Shown in pieces: positions 47,438 through 56,122 of a stretch of DNA of 64,000 nucleotides. Within the stretch, counting starts at the first letter, position 1. Each line of letters opens with the position of its first letter. Both the position numbers and the translations under genes were made by a program. The notes below the pieces were generated by a model. That model did no database searches. It was given only the letters and a program-made list of their open reading frames with translations, and had not been told where the DNA came from. Source of the stretch: Latilactobacillus sakei subsp. sakei DSM 20017 = JCM 1157 (GTDB lineage: Bacteria; Bacillota; Bacilli; Lactobacillales; Lactobacillaceae); the NCBI RefSeq assembly GCF_002370355.1, contig NZ_AP017929.1, positions 1,178,001 to 1,242,000 on the forward strand, given 5' to 3'.

Positions 47438-48178
47438 ATGAAAATATTAATGGTTGAAGATAATAAGTCTGTCTCTGAAATGATGGGTATGTTCTTTCAA
47501 AAAGAAGCGTGGGATGCCCACTTTGCGTATGATGGTAATGAAGCGGTGGAACAATTTAGTGTTGATCCTGATAGTTGGGATATTATTACGTTAGATTTGA
47601 ATTTACCAGGAATGGATGGGATGCAGGTCGCCCAAAAAATTCGGGAGCAATCTAAAGTGGTGCCGATTATTATGTTAACGGCTCGCGATTCAGAGAGTGA
47701 TCAAGTCTTGGGGCTCGAATTGGGTGCGGATGATTATGTGACGAAACCTTTTAGCCCAATTACATTGATTGCCCGGATTAAGGCGCTTCATCGCCGTGCT
47801 GAGTTAGTTGATGAACAAGTTGGCGCGGAAGACGCACAAGTTGAAGAAGTAGATAACTCCGATTACGATGTACAAACAGATCACTTCAAGATGAGCTCTA
47901 AGACACGCGAGGCCTATTTAATGGACGAACCGATTTTAGATCTTACGCCCAAAGAATTTGATTTATTGAAGACTTTAGCGAAGAATCCACGCCAAGTTTT
48001 CTCACGTGAACAGTTATTAGAACTTGTTTGGGATTACCAATATTTTGGTGATGAACGAACAGTCGATGCCCATATTAAAAAACTCCGTCAAAAGATCGAA
48101 AAGGTTGGTCCCCAAGTGATCCAGACGGTCTGGGGTGTCGGCTACAAATTTGATGATTCAGCGGTCAATAAACACTAA
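47438..48178 (+). CDS. Two-component response regulator, OmpR/PhoB family
   Basis: A 246-residue regulator. The receiver domain has the acidic pair in MVEDN, the phosphorylated Asp in TLDLNLPGMDG (about residue 54), Thr in MLTARDS and Lys in VTKPF. The winged-helix DNA-binding domain ends the protein (LTPKEFDLLKTLAKNPRQVFSRE, split by nature into helix and turn, then VDAHIKKLRQKI). Between them is an acidic linker of about 25 residues, longer than usual. Its stop shares a base with the kinase start. The signal is unknown. Confidence 0.95.
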   Translation: MKILMVEDNKSVSEMMGMFFQKEAWDAHFAYDGNEAVEQFSVDPDSWDIITLDLNLPGMDGMQVAQKIREQSKVVPIIMLTARDSESDQVLGLELGADDYVTKPFSPITLIARIKALHRRAELVDEQVGAEDAQVEEVDNSDYDVQTDHFKMSSKTREAYLMDEPILDLTPKEFDLLKTLAKNPRQVFSREQLLELVWDYQYFGDERTVDAHIKKLRQKIEKVGPQVIQTVWGVGYKFDDSAVNKH

Positions 48179-49614
48179 TGAAACTGATCTATCAGTGGAT
48201 GCTAGCCTTTTTTGGGGTTATTATGACGACCATCGTGATCGTTGGAATTGCGTTTACGCAGTATTCAACGAAGACGGCTTATAATAATACGTGGGATCAG
48301 TTGGAAGGTTACGCATCAGTTATTGAACGTGAAGCATTCAAACAGGGCTCACAGGCAACACTATCCAAGCAGTTTATTGATGATAGCCAAGCCATCCTGT
48401 CGCAACAACGGGTTAGTTTTAATTTCTTTAATGCGCAAAATGAAATGGTTTACCCAGCGCCTAATTCGAACGTTTCTGTTAAGAAAAAGTATTGGAAATA
48501 CCTGAAGAAGGGGCAGGTCCAACGACTCAGTATGAGCAAGGACTCCCGGCAATTTAATAATGATCAAGATCAACTGGTTGTTTTTAAACCGGTTTTCTAT
48601 AATGATAAGCTGATTTATGTTATTGGGGTTGGTTCCTCCATTAAAAACGTTAAGTCGGGCTTAGTGACGATGCGCAAGAATTTATTGATTGCCTTCTTAC
48701 TTTCGACGATTGGTGGCATTTTACTCAGTTACGTCCTAGCGCGCTACCAGATTTATCGGATTAGCCGTTTACGAAATGCAACGCATCTGGTTGCCGAAGG
48801 GGATTTTGATGTTCATATCGATAACCCTGGTAAGGATGAATTGGATGATTTGGCGACCGACTTTAACGAAATGGTCCACTCGCTTAATGAATCTGAGGCC
48901 GAAATTAAGCGGCAAGAAGATCGCCGTCGTCAATTTATGGCCGATGCTGCACACGAAATGCGAACGCCATTAACGACGGTGAAAGGGCTATTGGAAGGCT
49001 TAGCCTACGATGCCATCCCAGAAGAAATGCGAGAAAAGAGTATTTCATTAATGCAAAACGAAACGAATCGCTTAATTCGCTTGGTTAATGAGAACTTGGA
49101 TTATGAAAAGATTCGAACAAACCAAATTAAATTGAATCAACAAACATTTAATGCGGTAGAAGCGTTGCAAAACATTCAAGAACAACTTCAGAAAAAAGCG
49201 GCGGATGCCGGTGACACCATTGTGCTTGAAGCACAAGAAGAAGTGGCTATCTATGCCGACTATGACCGCTTTGTTCAGGTCATGTTTAATATCATGCAAA
49301 ATGCCATCCAATTTACCAATAACGGACAGATTATGGTTACTGCAGAAGCTGGGTTCCACGAAACCATTCTGACGGTTAGTGATACTGGGATTGGGATGAC
49401 CCTTGAGCAAGTTAAGAATATTTGGGAACGATACTATAAGGCTGATCCTTCTCGGAAGAATACAAAATACGGGGAATCTGGCTTGGGCCTAGCAATTGTT
49501 CATCAATTGGTCCAATTACATCATGGGACTATCGAGGTTCAAAGTGAACCGGATCAAGGGACAACCTTTACATTAACTTTCCCAGACGAAACAGTTACAA
49601 CTGATGCTAATTAA
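48178..49614 (+). CDS. Sensor histidine kinase partner
   Basis: A 478-residue membrane kinase with two helices (residues ~5-27 and ~163-185) around an extracellular sensor of about 130 residues. A HAMP domain follows, then the H-box AAHEMRTPLTTVKGL with the phosphorylated His. The ATPase has N-box QVMFNIMQNAIQFTNNG, G1 DTGIGM and G2 GESGLGLAIV. It is encoded with the regulator and probably responds to an envelope or external signal, but the sensor domain shows nothing I can name. Confidence 0.94.
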   Translation: MKLIYQWMLAFFGVIMTTIVIVGIAFTQYSTKTAYNNTWDQLEGYASVIEREAFKQGSQATLSKQFIDDSQAILSQQRVSFNFFNAQNEMVYPAPNSNVSVKKKYWKYLKKGQVQRLSMSKDSRQFNNDQDQLVVFKPVFYNDKLIYVIGVGSSIKNVKSGLVTMRKNLLIAFLLSTIGGILLSYVLARYQIYRISRLRNATHLVAEGDFDVHIDNPGKDELDDLATDFNEMVHSLNESEAEIKRQEDRRRQFMADAAHEMRTPLTTVKGLLEGLAYDAIPEEMREKSISLMQNETNRLIRLVNENLDYEKIRTNQIKLNQQTFNAVEALQNIQEQLQKKAADAGDTIVLEAQEEVAIYADYDRFVQVMFNIMQNAIQFTNNGQIMVTAEAGFHETILTVSDTGIGMTLEQVKNIWERYYKADPSRKNTKYGESGLGLAIVHQLVQLHHGTIEVQSEPDQGTTFTLTFPDETVTTDAN

Positions 49615-49664: not shown

Positions 49665-50900
49665 TTAAATAAATAACTGAGTGGTAGCCGGTTGTGTTTC
49701 ACTAATGATACGACCAGCGTGGATTGATAGCGTAACAGCGGCTCGTTGATTAAGTGCATTATAGAAATTATCACTAGCCATTAAGATTAAGTGGGCGGGT
49801 TTCCCAACTTCAAGGCCGTATTGGTCAGTCACGTGCATTGCCCGAGCGCCATTGTGGGTAATGAAGCGGTAAGCATTCATGATTTCTGTATAACCCATCA
49901 TTTGAGTTGCGTGTAAACCAGCATGGAGGACGTCTAACATGTTACCATCGCCCATAGGGTACCAAGGGTCTTGAATGTCATCTTCACCAAACGCAACATT
50001 CAATCCGTTAGCTGTTAATTCCTTGACCCGGGTGAGACCGCGGCGTTTGGGATAGGTATCAAAACGCCCCCCCAAGAATAAGTTGACCAAGGGGTTAGCG
50101 ATAAAATTAAGATCGGCCATTTTTAATAAGCGCATTAGCTTATACATGTAAGCATCATTGTAACAGCCCATTGCTGTTGTATGCGAGGCTGTTACCTTAT
50201 CTTTCATGCCAGTTTCTAAGGCGAGTGTAGCGATTGTTTCGAGGCTCCGTGAATTAGGATCATCGATTTCATCAGTATGGGCATCGAATAGTAGATCATA
50301 TTCTTGGGCTAGTTCAAAGGCAAATTTCAAGGATTCAACAGCATATTCTCGATTGAATTCGAAATGGGGAATTGCACCAATGGCGTCCACCCCTAGTTGA
50401 GCGGCCTTAGTCATTAGCGCCTTACCATTTGGAAAGGAGAGAATCCCTTCTTGTGGGAAGGCAACAAGTTGCAATGTCATCCAGTCTTTCACTTCTTCGC
50501 GGACCTCAATCAGTGCTTTAAGGGCGACTAGTTCAGGATCAGTGACGTCAACGTGTGAGCGAACAAACTGGACCCCATGACTAGCCTGCATTTTAAGGGC
50601 TTTGAGGGCTCGGTCTTTAACATCTTGGTGTGTCAGTGTTTTCTTACGCTCGGACCAGATTCGAATACCATCAAAAAGTGTGCCAGATTCATTCCATTCT
50701 GGTTGTCCGGCAGTTAGTGTTGAATCGAGATGAACGTGGGGGTCAACAAACGGTGGGAGCGCTAATTGTTGTTGGCCGTCAATTATTTTTTCGTTTTGTT
50801 GGGGCTCAAGATGTGATTCAATTGCTGTTATAAGACCATTTTCAATTCTAATTGATTTTAAAGCTGTCTGGTTCTCGATATGAACGTTTTGAATAAGCAT
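49665..50900 (-). CDS. codA: Cytosine deaminase (CodA-like amidohydrolase)
   Basis: CodA deaminates cytosine to uracil for pyrimidine salvage. The 411-residue amidohydrolase has the metal ligands PHVHLDS (residues ~56-62), the HTDEIDD motif with metal His and catalytic Glu, SHTTAM, and FGEDDIQDPWYPMGDGNML, which matches the CodA metal Asp region. It is divergent from codB, the cytosine permease, so the two form a salvage unit split over both strands. The ATG has GAGGAT nine bases upstream. Related isoguanine or creatinine deaminases share the fold, but the neighbour favours cytosine. Confidence 0.92.
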   Translation of the reverse strand: MLIQNVHIENQTALKSIRIENGLITAIESHLEPQQNEKIIDGQQQLALPPFVDPHVHLDSTLTAGQPEWNESGTLFDGIRIWSERKKTLTHQDVKDRALKALKMQASHGVQFVRSHVDVTDPELVALKALIEVREEVKDWMTLQLVAFPQEGILSFPNGKALMTKAAQLGVDAIGAIPHFEFNREYAVESLKFAFELAQEYDLLFDAHTDEIDDPNSRSLETIATLALETGMKDKVTASHTTAMGCYNDAYMYKLMRLLKMADLNFIANPLVNLFLGGRFDTYPKRRGLTRVKELTANGLNVAFGEDDIQDPWYPMGDGNMLDVLHAGLHATQMMGYTEIMNAYRFITHNGARAMHVTDQYGLEVGKPAHLILMASDNFYNALNQRAAVTLSIHAGRIISETQPATTQLFI

Positions 50901-50931
50901 CTGAATCCATCCTCGCTATTTTTTAATAGTG

Positions 50932-50977
50932 AGTATAACAATACTGGGTTGACTTTGGCAAGTAGGTTTAATACAAT
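50932..50977. promoter_or_regulatory. Overlapping divergent promoters of codA and codB
   Basis: For codB, TTGACT (50949-50954) and TACAAT (50972-50977) are 17 bases apart on the plus strand. For codA, TTGCCA (50956-50961 as TGGCAA) and TATACT (50932-50937 as AGTATA) are 18 bases apart on the minus strand. The codA -35 box lies inside the codB spacer, so polymerase cannot occupy both at once. Confidence 0.75.
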
Positions 50978-51004
50978 GCTTATAAATATAATTCCTTTTA
51001 AGTG

Positions 51005-51080
51005 CAGTCCAGAGAGGCTGACAAAGGAGCGACTATCGGGATTTAATGGCCTCGCTCTGTTTTGGAGTGGGCCTTTTTTG
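51005..51080 (+). promoter_or_regulatory. PyrR-responsive attenuator of codB
   Basis: The PyrR binding-loop consensus is present as AGTCCAGAGAGGCTGACAAA (51006-51025). CAGAGAGGC can pair with GCCTCGCTCTG at 51049-51059 as antiterminator. The terminator is GGCC..GCTC / GAGT..GGCC followed by T6 (51047-51080). Known mechanism: PyrR with UMP binds the loop and frees the terminator, so codB is shut off when pyrimidines are plentiful. Confidence 0.93.
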
Positions 51081-51110
51081 TTTGTGATGGTCGAAGTTGG
51101 AGGAGAGAAA

Positions 51111-52469
51111 ATGGCAAAACAACATACGATTCACTCAGTCGCTAAGTCTGAAAGAACGATGGGTGATTGGGATTTATTTGCGACCTGGATAGGTGCCAAC
51201 GCTAATAATGGGACGTGGTACATCGGCGGTATTATTGCCGCAACTGGTCTTATTCAAGGCTCTACACTGTTGATTGCCATCGGCTGTTTATCCTATGTCT
51301 TATTAGCACTTGCTTCTTATATGGGCTATCAAACTGGTGTGGGTGCAATGGGTTTAACGCGTGCTTCGTTTGGCGTTAAAGGTTCAGTCTTACCATCACT
51401 CATTAACGTCGTGCAATTCATCGGTTGGGCAGCTGTTAATACCTATATTGCGGCGACTTCTGTGAGCTTTATTTTGAAAGAAATTATGGGTTGGTCGGGC
51501 AATGATGCCGCTACGAATCGCTTGAGCTTGGTTGTTGGGATCATCATCATGTCTATCTTGCATCTTATCAGTATTTCGTTAGGTGAAAAATCAGTTCGTT
51601 GGATCGAACGGATTGGGATTGTACTCGTGATTATCTTAGTGACATGGGAATCAATCATTGTTTTCAAAATGGTACCGTTCAAGGATCTGGTGGCTTGGCG
51701 TCCAGCTGCCAAGTTTCGTCTTGAAGCCGGTCGAGCAATCGATATTTTAGCCGCCTTTAATTTAGCGTGGGTCACAGCAGCTGCTGACTTTAGTCGTTTT
51801 GCCAAGCGTAAGAAGGCCGCAACTGTTTATTCATTCCTAGGGGCTAATATCGGCTTATTCTGGTTTGCCTTCATCGGTTTGACGGCGACAATTGCGACCG
51901 CGATTACGTTGAATCATTTTGATCCTAATAACGCTGATCCAAGTACGATTGCCGCTAAATTAGGACTCGGCGTTTTAGCCTTGTTGGTGATTGTAATTAC
52001 CAGTACAACCGCGAATGCTGTTAATTTAATGGCTGCTGGTTCAGCGCTCACTAATATTTTTCCAAAGCTTAAGTTAACGCCAGCACTCTGGTGTGTTACC
52101 TTGTTGGCAACGGTCGTCACCTTTATTCCAGTTTATGTCGCGTCATTTTTGACCACCTTTGAAACCTTCTTAGACAGTATTGGAATGTTCTTAGGACCAG
52201 AGATTGCCATTTTCCTAGTGGATTACTTCTGGATTAGACGCCGACACTATCAAGTAGACGCGCTTAATACGATTGCTGGGCCATACTGGTATACGAAGGG
52301 CTATCATCTAACGGCATTATTCAGTTGGGTGATTGGCGTTATCAGTTATTTAATCTTAAATCAATTCGCAATTGTGCACGCCTATACAGGGGCAACCTTT
52401 ATCGCCATGTTGATCACAGCGCTTTTTTATAGGGTAGCTGTTCAACTACAAACTAAAAAAGTGATTTAA
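51111..52469 (+). CDS. codB: Cytosine permease, NCS1 family
   Basis: CodB imports cytosine. The 452-residue protein has about 12 helices and the NCS1 pattern: TMGDWDLFATWIGANANNGTWYIGG in helix 1 (quoted in part across the helix), AAADFSRFAKRK between helices, and GPEIAIFLVDYFWIR near the end. The start is ATG 51111 with GGAGGA before it; the open frame reaching back to 50880 runs through the attenuator and is not coding. Transcription is set by the PyrR attenuator just upstream. Confidence 0.93.
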   Translation: MAKQHTIHSVAKSERTMGDWDLFATWIGANANNGTWYIGGIIAATGLIQGSTLLIAIGCLSYVLLALASYMGYQTGVGAMGLTRASFGVKGSVLPSLINVVQFIGWAAVNTYIAATSVSFILKEIMGWSGNDAATNRLSLVVGIIIMSILHLISISLGEKSVRWIERIGIVLVIILVTWESIIVFKMVPFKDLVAWRPAAKFRLEAGRAIDILAAFNLAWVTAAADFSRFAKRKKAATVYSFLGANIGLFWFAFIGLTATIATAITLNHFDPNNADPSTIAAKLGLGVLALLVIVITSTTANAVNLMAAGSALTNIFPKLKLTPALWCVTLLATVVTFIPVYVASFLTTFETFLDSIGMFLGPEIAIFLVDYFWIRRRHYQVDALNTIAGPYWYTKGYHLTALFSWVIGVISYLILNQFAIVHAYTGATFIAMLITALFYRVAVQLQTKKVI

Positions 52470-52478
52470 ATCGTTATG

Positions 52479-52516
52479 AAAGTCAGTATAAAATTATTTT
52501 ATGCTGGCTTTTTTAT
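52479..52516 (+). terminator. Terminator after codB
   Basis: AGTCAGTATAAAA pairs with TTTTATGCTGGCT, with two G-T pairs, followed by T6. Confidence 0.85.
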
Positions 52517-52584
52517 TTTTTACCAGATAGTTCATATATTTTTCACACTTTAGCTTTACACTGTTTCTATAAGGGGGTGAGTTA

Positions 52585-53337
52585 ATGTTTTTCTTAAAAT
52601 CGATTCCGGCCAATATTCATTATTATTGGCGGCAGTCGCTAGCGATTTATTTATTGGACTGTTTATTTTTAGGCCTGGCGACAATTATTTTGGGCTTGAT
52701 TCGGTTAGAACGACATAACTTAACCCAACTCAAGAGTCAGTTAGCTAATTTTACAGCTGAAGAAAAGTTTGCAGCGGATCATCCGTTAAAGACGTTGCTC
52801 CATTCTAACCAGACAGTCTTAGAGCGGTATCAAACTGCGTATCTATTACTAATGATTGTCGGGATCATCGCCACAGTAATCATTAGTTGGTTGGCGTTTA
52901 AAATTTTGGCGCGTGATATCGAAACCTTTTTTAGTGCCAATTGGACACGAACGAAAGTGACGTTGTATTACGGCTTAACGGCGCTTTGCTTACTATTTTT
53001 TGCTGTCGTAACGATCAGCCTTTTGTTGTTAGTTGCTAATCAGCCGTTCTGGCGAGGATTAGAAGCGATCAACCATTATTGGCATCGACCACTGCAAGCA
53101 ATGCAAAAAGCACCTAAAACGCTCAACCCACTCTTTAAAAATCATTTGACAGATTTTAGTAGTCATTCTCTTTTGAATCCGACACTGCACAATAGTGTCA
53201 AACAAACATTAACCAATCAAATTTTGGGGCAATTATGGCAAGCAATCATTAGCTTAGCCGCACCGATTTTAATGATTGGTGGGTTACAAGTCAGTCGTTT
53301 TAAGAAAAAATATTTAAGAGGTGAGTCGGTATGTTGA
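52585..53337 (+). CDS. Four-helix membrane protein, permease-like (FtsX/MacB-like topology)
   Basis: A 250-residue protein with a helix near residues 17-40, an outer loop of ~40 residues, helices near 84-108 and 127-153, a loop, and a last helix near 220-240. This resembles a shortened FtsX/MacB-type permease, though I cannot name a family by sequence. The strongest clue is its neighbour: the next gene overlaps by seven bases and encodes what looks like a degenerate ABC ATPase. GGGGGTGA precedes the ATG. Function unknown. Confidence 0.6.
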   Translation: MFFLKSIPANIHYYWRQSLAIYLLDCLFLGLATIILGLIRLERHNLTQLKSQLANFTAEEKFAADHPLKTLLHSNQTVLERYQTAYLLLMIVGIIATVIISWLAFKILARDIETFFSANWTRTKVTLYYGLTALCLLFFAVVTISLLLLVANQPFWRGLEAINHYWHRPLQAMQKAPKTLNPLFKNHLTDFSSHSLLNPTLHNSVKQTLTNQILGQLWQAIISLAAPILMIGGLQVSRFKKKYLRGESVC

Positions 53338-53792
53338 ACAAACAACCATTAGAAGTCGGGCAGATTTATTTCAGTCAACCAGAGTTGTTGAAGACAGCAT
53401 TACAACTCCCTAATCAGCCCTTTACGATTGATTATGCGCAACCAAAGATCCTACCGTTCTTATCGGGGTGGGATAATCTATTGTTACCTAAGGATGCTGA
53501 TCAGTCAGTCATTAGCATCTTGACTGATCAATATGTCAAAAAAGTGCGGACGACACAAGGAAGTGCGTTGAAACCAATCGATCAGTTTTGGATTCAATTT
53601 ATTCGTGGTTTAGCAAATCGGCAACAGGTCTTCGTCTTAGCGCGTTATTTAGATCAACTAGCCCCTCGAGATGCGCGTCAGTTATTAAACGACGTCCGCA
53701 AGATTGCGGCCGATAACGAACTAATTATCATCTTTACAACGGTACAAGAATCTGTTTTTGAGAGCTTTAAGAAACAAGTATTAACGCGTTAA
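53331..53792 (+). CDS. Degenerate ABC-type ATPase lacking the P-loop
   Basis: This 153-residue protein aligns in outline with an ABC ATPase but has lost its catalytic parts. LSGWDNLLLPKD sits where ABC proteins have the LSxxENxxLP segment after the Q-loop. WIQFIRGLANRQQVFVLAR occupies the RVAIARAL...VLLLDEP position, with the Walker B Asp-Glu gone, and YLDQLAPRDARQLLNDV resembles the D-loop region. No Walker A GxxGxGK(S/T) exists and the usual N-terminal strand pair is shortened. It is translationally coupled to the membrane protein. I read it as a pseudo-ATPase partner; homology rests on eye alignment only. Confidence 0.55.
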   Translation: MLNKQPLEVGQIYFSQPELLKTALQLPNQPFTIDYAQPKILPFLSGWDNLLLPKDADQSVISILTDQYVKKVRTTQGSALKPIDQFWIQFIRGLANRQQVFVLARYLDQLAPRDARQLLNDVRKIAADNELIIIFTTVQESVFESFKKQVLTR

Positions 53793-53797
53793 ATACA

Positions 53798-53834
53798 AAA
53801 AAGTGTCATTCCAAATTCGGAATGGCACTTTTTA
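53798..53834. terminator. Bidirectional terminator (pseudo-ATPase / LtaS)
   Basis: AAAAGTGTCATTCC pairs with GGAATGGCACTTTT around AAATTC. Confidence 0.93.
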
Positions 53835-53841
53835 TTTGGGA

Positions 53842-56019
53842 CTATTCTGATGTTGATTGACCGGATTCCGAGCTACTACTTGACGAGGTAGCTGCACTAT
53901 CTTTTAGTGCTTTGCTTTTAGGGACTTCAGTTAAACTAGATTGATCATCTGCTAACTCGGGGGCATCTGTTTTAAATAATGGGACTGTTGATTTGCCTTT
54001 GTTTTGGGAAAGGACACTTGTTGATTTAGTGCCTAGTTTATTTTCAATATCAACGAGTTGTTGATAGCCGGTTTGATAATTATAATCGGCAGGATCAACC
54101 GGTTTGAAACCAGTTGGTGTGTAAAAGCGTAAGAGGTTTTTCTCGTTAACTGAGTCAGAAAGGCTAAGTTCATGATTGACCTGCTTTTGCCATTTTGCGA
54201 CTTGCTTTTGCAATTTAGCTGTTGGTTGGGTGACTTCCGTACCATCTTGATTTTGATAGATGGTACCATCGAGGACGGTATATTCTGGCGTCACGAAGTT
54301 ATGATTTCGGAAGGCGACAACTTGATCGTGTTGCTTGGAAAGTAAGTCTGTCCCAAATTGAACGTAATTTTGGCTATTGATCCCTAATAGATGCAACATG
54401 GTTGGTAAGGCATCAATTTCGCCACCATATTGGGTTTGAATACCACCTTTTAAACCAGGCATGTGAATCATGTAAGGAACCCGTTGTAATTGGGCGTTAT
54501 CGTTATCGGTCCAAGTGTCATAATCACGGCCTAAAACGCCAGATAAAGCTTTATTATCGGAATTTGAGAGGCCGTAATGATCCCCATATAGCACAATCAT
54601 CGATTTATCATAGAGACCAGAACTCTTCAAATAATTGAAAAATTCAGCGAGTGACTGATCGAGATAATGAGCGGTTGCGAAGTAGTTATTAACAGCGGAA
54701 TTTTCGGTTGTTGCCCGTGGGAAATCACCATCTGTCTTAGGAAGTGGGAATGGGAAATGGTTAGTAACGGTAATAAATTTGGAATAGAACGGTTGTTGTA
54801 GTTGTTCTAAATATTTAATCGATTGGCCAAAGAGGAGTTTATCTTTGAGACCGTATTGTAAGACGTTATCAGGACTTGTATTAAAATAGCTAGAATCAAA
54901 GAAATAGTTGTAACCAAAGTTTTTATAAACGTTATTCCGGTTCCAGAACGTCCCAACATTCCCGTGGAAAACAGCGCTGGTATAATCGCCATTTTGTTTA
55001 AGAATTGAAGGGGCTGCTTGGAAGGTGTTGTCGGAACCAAGTGTTGTAAAGACGGAACCCTGTGGTAAGCCATACACGCCAGTTTCAAGCATGTTTTCTG
55101 CATCACTGGTTTTACCTTGGCCAACTTGATTAAAGAAGTTGGAAAAGGCTAGCGTATTTTGGTTGTGATAGAGACTGTTTAAAAATGGTGTGACTTCTTG
55201 ACCTTCAAACTTGAAATCGATTAAGAATTGTTGGAAACTCTCAAGATGAATGACGATCACGTTTTTACCTTTAGCAGCGCCGAAATAATCGGCATTGGGT
55301 GCGGCGTAGTGTTGTTTAGTGAAGTCTAAGACAGGATCTAAGTCGTAACTTTCGGCTTGGGCCCGGACTTGATTATTCTGGGTGGTTTTAACGGCATCGT
55401 AGACGGTAAAAGTATCAATACCGAGGTATTTAACAATATAGTTTCGATCGAAAGTCCGTGAGAGAATTTGTGGCCGGCTGATTTCACTCAGACCAAGATT
55501 AACACCGAATAATAAAACGGCTAGGGATGTAATACTAAATGCCCACCTTTTAGGGAATTGGCGGTGATCAATTTTAATGACCTTTAATAGGATTAAAACG
55601 GCCAAGATGATAATGTCTAGCCAGTAGAGTGCATCGTGCCAGTTCATTAGGGCTAGCGAACTTTTACTGAGGCCCGCGGAAACTTTTGAATAACCGAGGA
55701 TCGTGTTAATTGTCATGTAATCGGTGAATTGCCGGTAATAGATGACATTAAAGTACAAAAGGGCCGTGTTGGCCGTGTAAATCACCAGCCCGGTCCAATA
55801 ACTGATAATCGGTTGCTTAATGTACAATAAAATCCCCAAGACAAGCAAGGTAGTTGCGAGCGGATTGAAGATTAAAATGGCCATTTGGAGCGAATCGCTA
55901 GCTGCGAGGTTGAAATCGGTGAAATAACCAAAAAGGGTTTTAACCCAAAATAAAAAGACTAATAGGCTTAAAAAGCCAAGCTTAGAGGCCATAAATTGTT
56001 TTATTTTTGTGAGTTTCAA
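53842..56019 (-). CDS. Lipoteichoic acid synthase family protein (LtaS-like)
   Basis: LtaS polymerises glycerol phosphate from phosphatidylglycerol onto a glycolipid anchor. About five N-terminal helices (residues ~15-185) precede the outside sulfatase-fold domain. The catalytic Thr is in GQGKTSDAENM (about residue 300), with metal ligands in VIHLESFQ and YGDHYGLS. A C-terminal tail of about 90 residues ends in a Ser-rich stretch that is probably disordered. I prefer TTG 56019, nine to eleven bases after AAAGGA; ATG 56031 would abut that site and adds four residues. The next gene upstream makes glycolipid, which supports an LTA role. Confidence 0.92.
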   Translation of the reverse strand: MKLTKIKQFMASKLGFLSLLVFLFWVKTLFGYFTDFNLAASDSLQMAILIFNPLATTLLVLGILLYIKQPIISYWTGLVIYTANTALLYFNVIYYRQFTDYMTINTILGYSKVSAGLSKSSLALMNWHDALYWLDIIILAVLILLKVIKIDHRQFPKRWAFSITSLAVLLFGVNLGLSEISRPQILSRTFDRNYIVKYLGIDTFTVYDAVKTTQNNQVRAQAESYDLDPVLDFTKQHYAAPNADYFGAAKGKNVIVIHLESFQQFLIDFKFEGQEVTPFLNSLYHNQNTLAFSNFFNQVGQGKTSDAENMLETGVYGLPQGSVFTTLGSDNTFQAAPSILKQNGDYTSAVFHGNVGTFWNRNNVYKNFGYNYFFDSSYFNTSPDNVLQYGLKDKLLFGQSIKYLEQLQQPFYSKFITVTNHFPFPLPKTDGDFPRATTENSAVNNYFATAHYLDQSLAEFFNYLKSSGLYDKSMIVLYGDHYGLSNSDNKALSGVLGRDYDTWTDNDNAQLQRVPYMIHMPGLKGGIQTQYGGEIDALPTMLHLLGINSQNYVQFGTDLLSKQHDQVVAFRNHNFVTPEYTVLDGTIYQNQDGTEVTQPTAKLQKQVAKWQKQVNHELSLSDSVNEKNLLRFYTPTGFKPVDPADYNYQTGYQQLVDIENKLGTKSTSVLSQNKGKSTVPLFKTDAPELADDQSSLTEVPKSKALKDSAATSSSSSSESGQSTSE

Positions 56020-56122
56020 GAAATATGACATCCTTTCAAAATCAATCTAAAGCGCGTCATTGACTCATTTTACCGCCCAAATGAAGACAGCGCAAAGTGC
56101 ATGACATGATTTAAACGGAAAC

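Follow-up and report, generated by a model that had tools for sequence, protein, structure and literature searches.

A pair of adjacent genes in the window, by which we mean the whole 64,000-nucleotide stretch of Latilactobacillus sakei DNA analysed here, encodes a four-helix membrane protein (PERM) and a short relative of ABC ATPases (ATP), which appear from their sequences to belong to the type VII kind of ABC system and to be catalytically dead throughout their family. Several Lactobacillales families retain the pair next to ltaS, and from this we infer that it serves lipoteichoic acid (LTA) synthesis. The specific reading that we prefer, that PERM and ATP make up a type VII ABC pseudo-transporter which works independently of ATP and docks on LtaS, which it scaffolds or regulates, seems to us about evenly poised between right and wrong. 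An earlier note on this DNA had described a membrane protein paired with an ABC ATPase that lacks its P-loop, and had suggested that such an operon, if conserved, would encode a relative of ABC transporters that does not hydrolyse ATP and perhaps serves as a regulator or a scaffold. The pair is indeed present as two open reading frames, and its predicted fold, family-wide degeneracy and selection fit that suggestion; to it we add the order-wide conservation of the pair beside ltaS, a linkage absent from the earlier note and the strongest clue available.

PERM (52585..53337, + strand) is a frame of 250 aa for a predicted four-TM permease of FtsX/MacB type (type VII ABC), and ATP (53331..53792, + strand) a frame of 153 aa for a pseudo-ABC nucleotide-binding domain; the two overlap by 7 bp (53331-53337). 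Direct reading places a purine-rich ribosome-binding site before each gene, agggggtgag at 52572..52581 (+) for PERM and aagaggtgag at 53316..53325 (+), within the 3' end of PERM, for ATP. A homologue of lipoteichoic acid synthase, ltaS (53842..56031, − strand, 729 aa), lies tail to tail with ATP, 49 bp separating the end of ATP from the stop of the convergent gene, and its product shares 48.7–68% identity with LtaS of other Lactobacillales outside the genus. On the other side are a response regulator (47438..48178, +) and a histidine kinase (48178..49614, +), assigned by synteny to the BsrRS / RR06-HK06 type. The kinase is separated from the pair by a cytosine deaminase-like amidohydrolase (49665..50900, −) and a cytosine permease-like permease (50880..52469, +), both named by reading of the sequence with no database match. 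These two inserted genes, the permease being CodB-like, are both found in three sister species, while a fourth (L080) has the permease alone and L079 has neither. A consensus scan marked terminator-like hairpins 5' of PERM (52478..52512, +) and between ATP and ltaS (53807..53824, scored on the − strand), which are not evidence of function; the promoter scan gave fewer promoter-like sites than shuffled sequence, so that no promoter is claimed.

The distribution of the pair was assessed in 295 Lactobacillales genomes drawn evenly, presence being defined by profile searches as a full-length PERM together with a short ATP. Because a profile built from nine ATP sequences matched 295/295 genomes by also finding canonical ABC ATPases, presence was counted from deeper profiles, subject to a rule on frame length and to a check that the two genes are paired. 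The pair is found in 68 of the 295 genomes, PERM and ATP occurring in exactly the same 68; by count of listed rows, six of these belong to the window's own family and 10, 35, 1 and 16 to four others (f2, f3, f7 and f9 respectively). One borderline genome (G215; PERM E 3.4e-14, ATP E 1.2e-19) is included since both matches are full length and adjacent, and a match in G020 was rejected as a family member, being a canonical 300-aa ABC ATPase with a P-loop. A sample of 250 Bacilli genomes yielded, among the matches listed from outside Lactobacillales, only parts of longer frames of FtsX type. At least 10 of 80 named LtaS loci carry the pair, a lower bound as several of the other 70 are incomplete; the bearers belong to Latilactobacillus, Lactobacillus (Paralactobacillus) selangorensis, Loigolactobacillus, Schleiferilactobacillus and Enterococcus.

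Gene neighbourhoods were compared across 74 loci, one per genome, which were fetched through PERM or ATP without reference to ltaS and comprise 67 of the 68 genomes of the order-wide sample (the window's own genome being left out), five sister species and two further genomes. PERM lies 5' of ATP on the same strand in all 74, with a gap of at most 100 bp in 73 (median 2.5). The ltaS gene is present in 69/74 loci and in 65 of them is co-directional with and upstream of the pair, at a median distance of 114 bp; these include L105, where the frames touch in the order LtaS, PERM, ATP. In the other four, all Latilactobacillus, ltaS stands tail to tail with the pair as it does in the window; in the fifth sister species (G004) the gene order is still the ancestral one. 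All five genomes whose loci lack ltaS have LtaS somewhere: in G155 the gene is ~6 kb upstream on the same strand, and the G037 locus, which contains the kinase, lies at a contig end. In the window and in four sister species the orientation of the pair with respect to ltaS has flipped, so that the two are no longer co-directional and co-transcription has been lost there; the word operon, taken to include ltaS, holds for the family and not for the window. Many Lactobacillaceae have ltaS without the pair, which is thus dispensable for LTA synthesis, and linkage to ltaS is not proof of contact with LtaS. Two peculiarities of ltaS itself were seen. In G004 (locus L079) the gene appears as two ORFs (343 + 323 aa), through a frameshift or an assembly error; and in Companilactobacillus (L145, L146, L147, L149, L153, L173 and L191) the first ltaS gene is directly followed by another ltaS-like gene (two ORFs in L191), which fills the slot held by PERM and ATP in other genera.

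Published locus tags are consistent with the same arrangement in enterococci. In Enterococcus faecium DO, ltaS is HMPREF0351_11744 (PMC12802148) and bsrS, bsrR and bsrX are HMPREF0351_11747, 11748 and 11749 (PMC6522849), leaving two unnamed tags, HMPREF0351_11745 and 11746, between ltaS and bsrS; in E. faecalis, LtaS is EF1264 (PMC3299793, PMC10952268) and RR06/HK06 are EF1260/EF1261 (PMC7701990), so that EF1262/EF1263 fall between EF1261 and EF1264. Tag order suggests that HMPREF0351_11745/11746 and EF1262/EF1263 are ATP and PERM. Literature searches returned unrelated papers only for EF1262/EF1263, judged by their titles, no paper for HMPREF0351_11745/11746 and none for the OG1RF tags searched; nor was an ABC-type helper of LtaS found in the literature searched. 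The pair is conserved in many lactic acid bacteria and enterococci, yet it is apparently unstudied.

The same neighbourhood raises an alternative, to which we give a minor share of belief: that the pair serves the BsrRS-type two-component system as a sensory or accessory module, in the way that BceAB serves BceS, the pair's nearness to ltaS being secondary. Kinases are working partners of the Bce kind of type VII ABC transporters (PMC12646458), and RR06/HK06 of E. faecalis have a role in polymyxin resistance (PMC7701990) and BsrRS of E. faecium one in bile resistance (PMC6522849). A histidine kinase like that of the window is found in 55/74 loci, usually convergent with ATP, and in three of them without ltaS. 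Seventeen loci, however, have ltaS without the kinase (two have neither), and the kinase genes run opposite to the pair in most loci. Moreover, PERM has four TM regions where Bce-type permeases have ten, and the window kinase has, by reading of its sequence, an apparent outer sensor region of ~150 aa such as BceS is not known to possess.

The preferred reading, a pseudo-transporter serving LtaS, depends on what the two proteins are. Scans of the single sequences against Pfam and NCBIfam gave nothing above cut-off for either PERM or ATP, the weak top names (Tetraspanin, aspartate-semialdehyde dehydrogenase) being below cut-off and dismissed as chance; resemblance to ABC systems is shown instead by family profiles and predicted folds. 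PERM has TM-like stretches at ~16-44, 77-116, 123-159 and 212-239 (KD scan), and its AlphaFold model (pLDDT 80.5, pTM 0.75) gives a VIA comparison in which the top 29 rows are all type VII permeases (Z 14.6-10.1), namely HrtB, BceB, MacB, FtsX, LolC/E, YtrF or close kin, before Z falls to 8.6 at rank 30. Helical models can reach Z 13 through a common arrangement, so the call rests on the gap between ranks 29 and 30 together with the profile match and the Pfam tally; searched with Foldseek alone, PERM had no hit in the PDB at E<=0.001. The PERM-family profile aligns to MacB-type permeases with an hhalign E of 3.6e-9 over 99 columns, and PF02687 matches 36/55 family members at E<=0.1 (best 6.8e-10), with the window PERM alone staying under cut-off (E=1.1). 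A four-helix FtsX/MacB-type permease, as the earlier note had supposed, is what these comparisons predict. The large outer head domain is missing, the outer segments between TM-like stretches amounting to ~33 and 52 residues with a short stalk. Within the genus the most conserved stretch of PERM is residues 181-202 (NPLFKNHLTDFSSHSLLNPTLH; 53125..53190, +) in predicted extracellular loop 2, where 17/20 residues at 183-202 are invariant in six species against 29% overall, a density reached in 0/5000 shuffles. The patch is a likely candidate for a partner-binding site, and the monomer model has pLDDT <50 at 187-198 in this loop, as a partner-binding loop might.

For ATP the case for an ABC fold is made in the same way. 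A profile of nine relatives picks up canonical ABC ATPases across the order, with long-frame matches to ~1e-13 (for example a 367-aa frame in G174), and the family profile aligns to MacB-type ATPases with an hhalign E of 3.9e-15 over 123 columns. The AlphaFold model of the window protein, built from an 11-row alignment (pLDDT 85.4, pTM 0.82), matches 436 PDB chains, ABC domains, at E<=0.001, and VIA aligns it to CbiO1 (Z 12.7) and to FtsE of Streptococcus pneumoniae (Z 12.3) over 150-152 residues. The protein is thus predicted to adopt the fold of an ABC nucleotide-binding domain; the structure prediction by which the earlier note proposed to check its idea gave a related fold and not an unrelated one.

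The catalytic motifs have gone from this fold, the loss of Walker A and of the Walker B acids being as the earlier note had read them. In the window protein the P-loop is essentially deleted, Walker B DE has become LAR and the H-loop His is replaced (TTV); Walker A, the signature glycines, the Walker B acids and the H-loop His are all missing, as is every canonical residue that was tallied (Gly41, Lys42, Gln85, Gly140, Gly141, Asp162, Glu163 and His196). No GK[S/T] P-loop occurs in the window ATP or in the short ATP frames of its 74 relatives (0/74). Tallied over the family against canonical sequences, the P-loop Gly41 and the signature Gly140 and Gly141 are each kept in 0/75, Lys42 in 6/75 and never preceded by Gly, Gln85 in 5/75 and His196 in 4/75. 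The Walker B Asp162 survives in 34/75 and the catalytic Glu163 in 2/75, with Asp at that position in 44/75 and an acid in 46/75, so that residual chemistry at the site is possible in other species. Other residues are well retained: Pro91 in 62/75, Tyr/Phe92 in 72/75, Leu93 in 69/75, Ser/Thr94 in 65/75 and Asn98 in 65/75, beside a family-specific Gln at position 147 in 66/75. The window protein keeps the segment LPFLSGWDNLLL after the Q-loop position, and in ABC structures the Leu-Pro-Tyr-Leu-Ser region lies, we presume, where the domain meets the coupling helix of the permease. The pattern fits a protein that has lost catalysis and retained docking, and the missing residues suggest that it is non-hydrolysing. 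We also noted that 32/56 ATP family members match the NCBIfam MAG1360 family, which is OppF-related (best E 8.9e-13); this family, whose name we take to be mycoplasmal, is possibly another degenerate ABC family.

An ATP-driven machine might nevertheless be recovered if PERM, whose type VII core is kept in the model, borrowed an active ABC ATPase from elsewhere, ATP being a regulatory or asymmetric second subunit. ABC ATPases are plentiful in the genome (72 FtsE-profile matches, repeats within one gene included), and it is common for ABC complexes to be asymmetric, one of their sites being dead (PMC11466899). This explanation, which we hold to be improbable to the same degree as the two-component module, sits poorly with the pairing of the pseudo-ATPase with PERM in 68/68 genomes having either and with the kept docking segment, by which the pseudo-ATPase probably occupies the PERM site itself; within the unit no active ATPase turned up.

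Slightly less credible still is a ligand-gated switch, in place of a fixed scaffold, in which a rebuilt site would let the pseudo-ATPase bind a nucleotide or some other ligand. The acids frequently seen at Walker B outside Latilactobacillus, at positions 162 and 163, and the conserved Gln147 would suit such a site, but the P-loop is found in no member and the window protein lacks both acids.

The genes themselves are real and constrained. PERM and ATP are present as open frames, with no stop codons, in 6/6 genomes of the genus that were searched, the window's own included. For ATP, dN/dS is 0.025-0.16 where dS could be estimated; since dS is saturated or nearly so in most species pairs, only the two closest pairs give sound values, which are 0.025 and 0.084 for ATP, 0.061 and 0.113 for PERM and 0.022 and 0.026 for LtaS. 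PERM and ATP are under purifying selection in Latilactobacillus, albeit looser than that on ltaS, and the genus shows neither the stop codons nor the relaxed selection that the earlier note named as grounds for refuting its idea. Between the window and L076, dS is ~1.5 for PERM and ATP, 0.74 for ltaS and 0.38-0.45 for the kinase, regulator and CodB-like genes; the raised values could reflect recombination or a weaker constraint on codons. A single broken member was seen, G106 (locus L112), in which an in-frame TAA leaves a 116-aa frame of ATP while PERM and ltaS look intact. That the pair is a decaying ABC transporter without present function is very hard to credit, for although every ATPase motif is lost, ATP is shortened to 153 aa, one member carries a stop and many Lactobacillaceae have lost the pair, dN/dS is far below 1, the frames are intact in the genus, both genes occur in the same 68 genomes and the same degeneracy throughout the family means that the motifs were lost long ago.

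We return to the preferred reading, in which the pair acts on LtaS. PERM would form a dimer, as in its relatives, having lost the outer head and kept a short stalk and the conserved outer loop, while ATP would retain the fold of an ABC domain together with the segment that should dock onto the cytoplasmic coupling helix of PERM, in a physical complex, and would be unable to bind or hydrolyse ATP by the known mechanism. The outer loop would contact extracellular LtaS or its lipid substrate, and the pseudo-ATPase would stabilise the PERM dimer from inside and may link it to a cytoplasmic partner. The pair would thereby place, stabilise or tune LtaS and so affect LTA, akin to FtsEX over cell wall hydrolases, without an ATP cycle. 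According to PMC12646458, type VII ABC systems mostly do their work on the outer side of the membrane, by way of an extracytoplasmic or membrane partner protein. Against a role with LtaS speak the flipped orientation in Latilactobacillus, the many ltaS loci that lack the pair, its partial association with the kinase and its faster evolution relative to ltaS. A broader proposal, that the family is an order-wide class of ABC complexes running without ATP, with both nucleotide sites dead and the type VII machine remade as a constitutive, ligand-gated or force-gated controller of LTA synthase, is one that we advance tentatively and think somewhat more likely wrong than right.

If this broader proposal is true, such complexes would supply a control unit that has so far been missing from the picture of LTA synthesis in enterococci, carnobacteria and lactobacilli. 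The control of LtaS, a drug target, in its amount, place, chain length and shut-off is an open question of Gram-positive envelope biology, and an unstudied pair beside ltaS, in enterococci included, offers a direct genetic test of it. An ABC machine under selection that has lost every ATPase motif family-wide, and not just one of its two sites, would be striking, and would show what in the ABC fold remains of use once ATP is given up.

Among the closest known systems, the MacB/YknYZ type shares the four-TM FtsX-like core with a stalk, the side-by-side genes and profile homology of both proteins. The genome itself encodes such a system (L224), consisting of a 220-aa ATPase and a 489-aa permease; the canonical ATPase has GSSGAGKTT, LSGGQQQR and VVVADEPT, which the window ATP lacks, and the permease has a large outer domain, which PERM lacks. 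BceAB-BceS resembles the pair in its type VII fold (8g3a, Z 13.7) and in having a two-component system nearby, and differs in its ten TM helices and active ATPase (PMC11466899, PMC12646458); with four TM regions PERM was rejected as a BceAB-type permease. FtsEX is alike in the folds of both subunits (FtsE Z 12.3, FtsX Z 12.5) and in the proposed steering of an outer enzyme, with FtsE being an active ATPase unlike the window ATP. The pair is not FtsEX itself, since FtsX_ECD (PF18075) and FtsE (TIGR02673) exceed cut-off at C1:1904598-1905717, the FtsEX of this genome, and not at the pair. YbbAP-TesA, as described in PMC12646458, differs in having ten TM helices, ATP drive and a hydrolase partner, and resembles the pair as a type VII ABC unit that works with an outer enzyme on lipid substrates.
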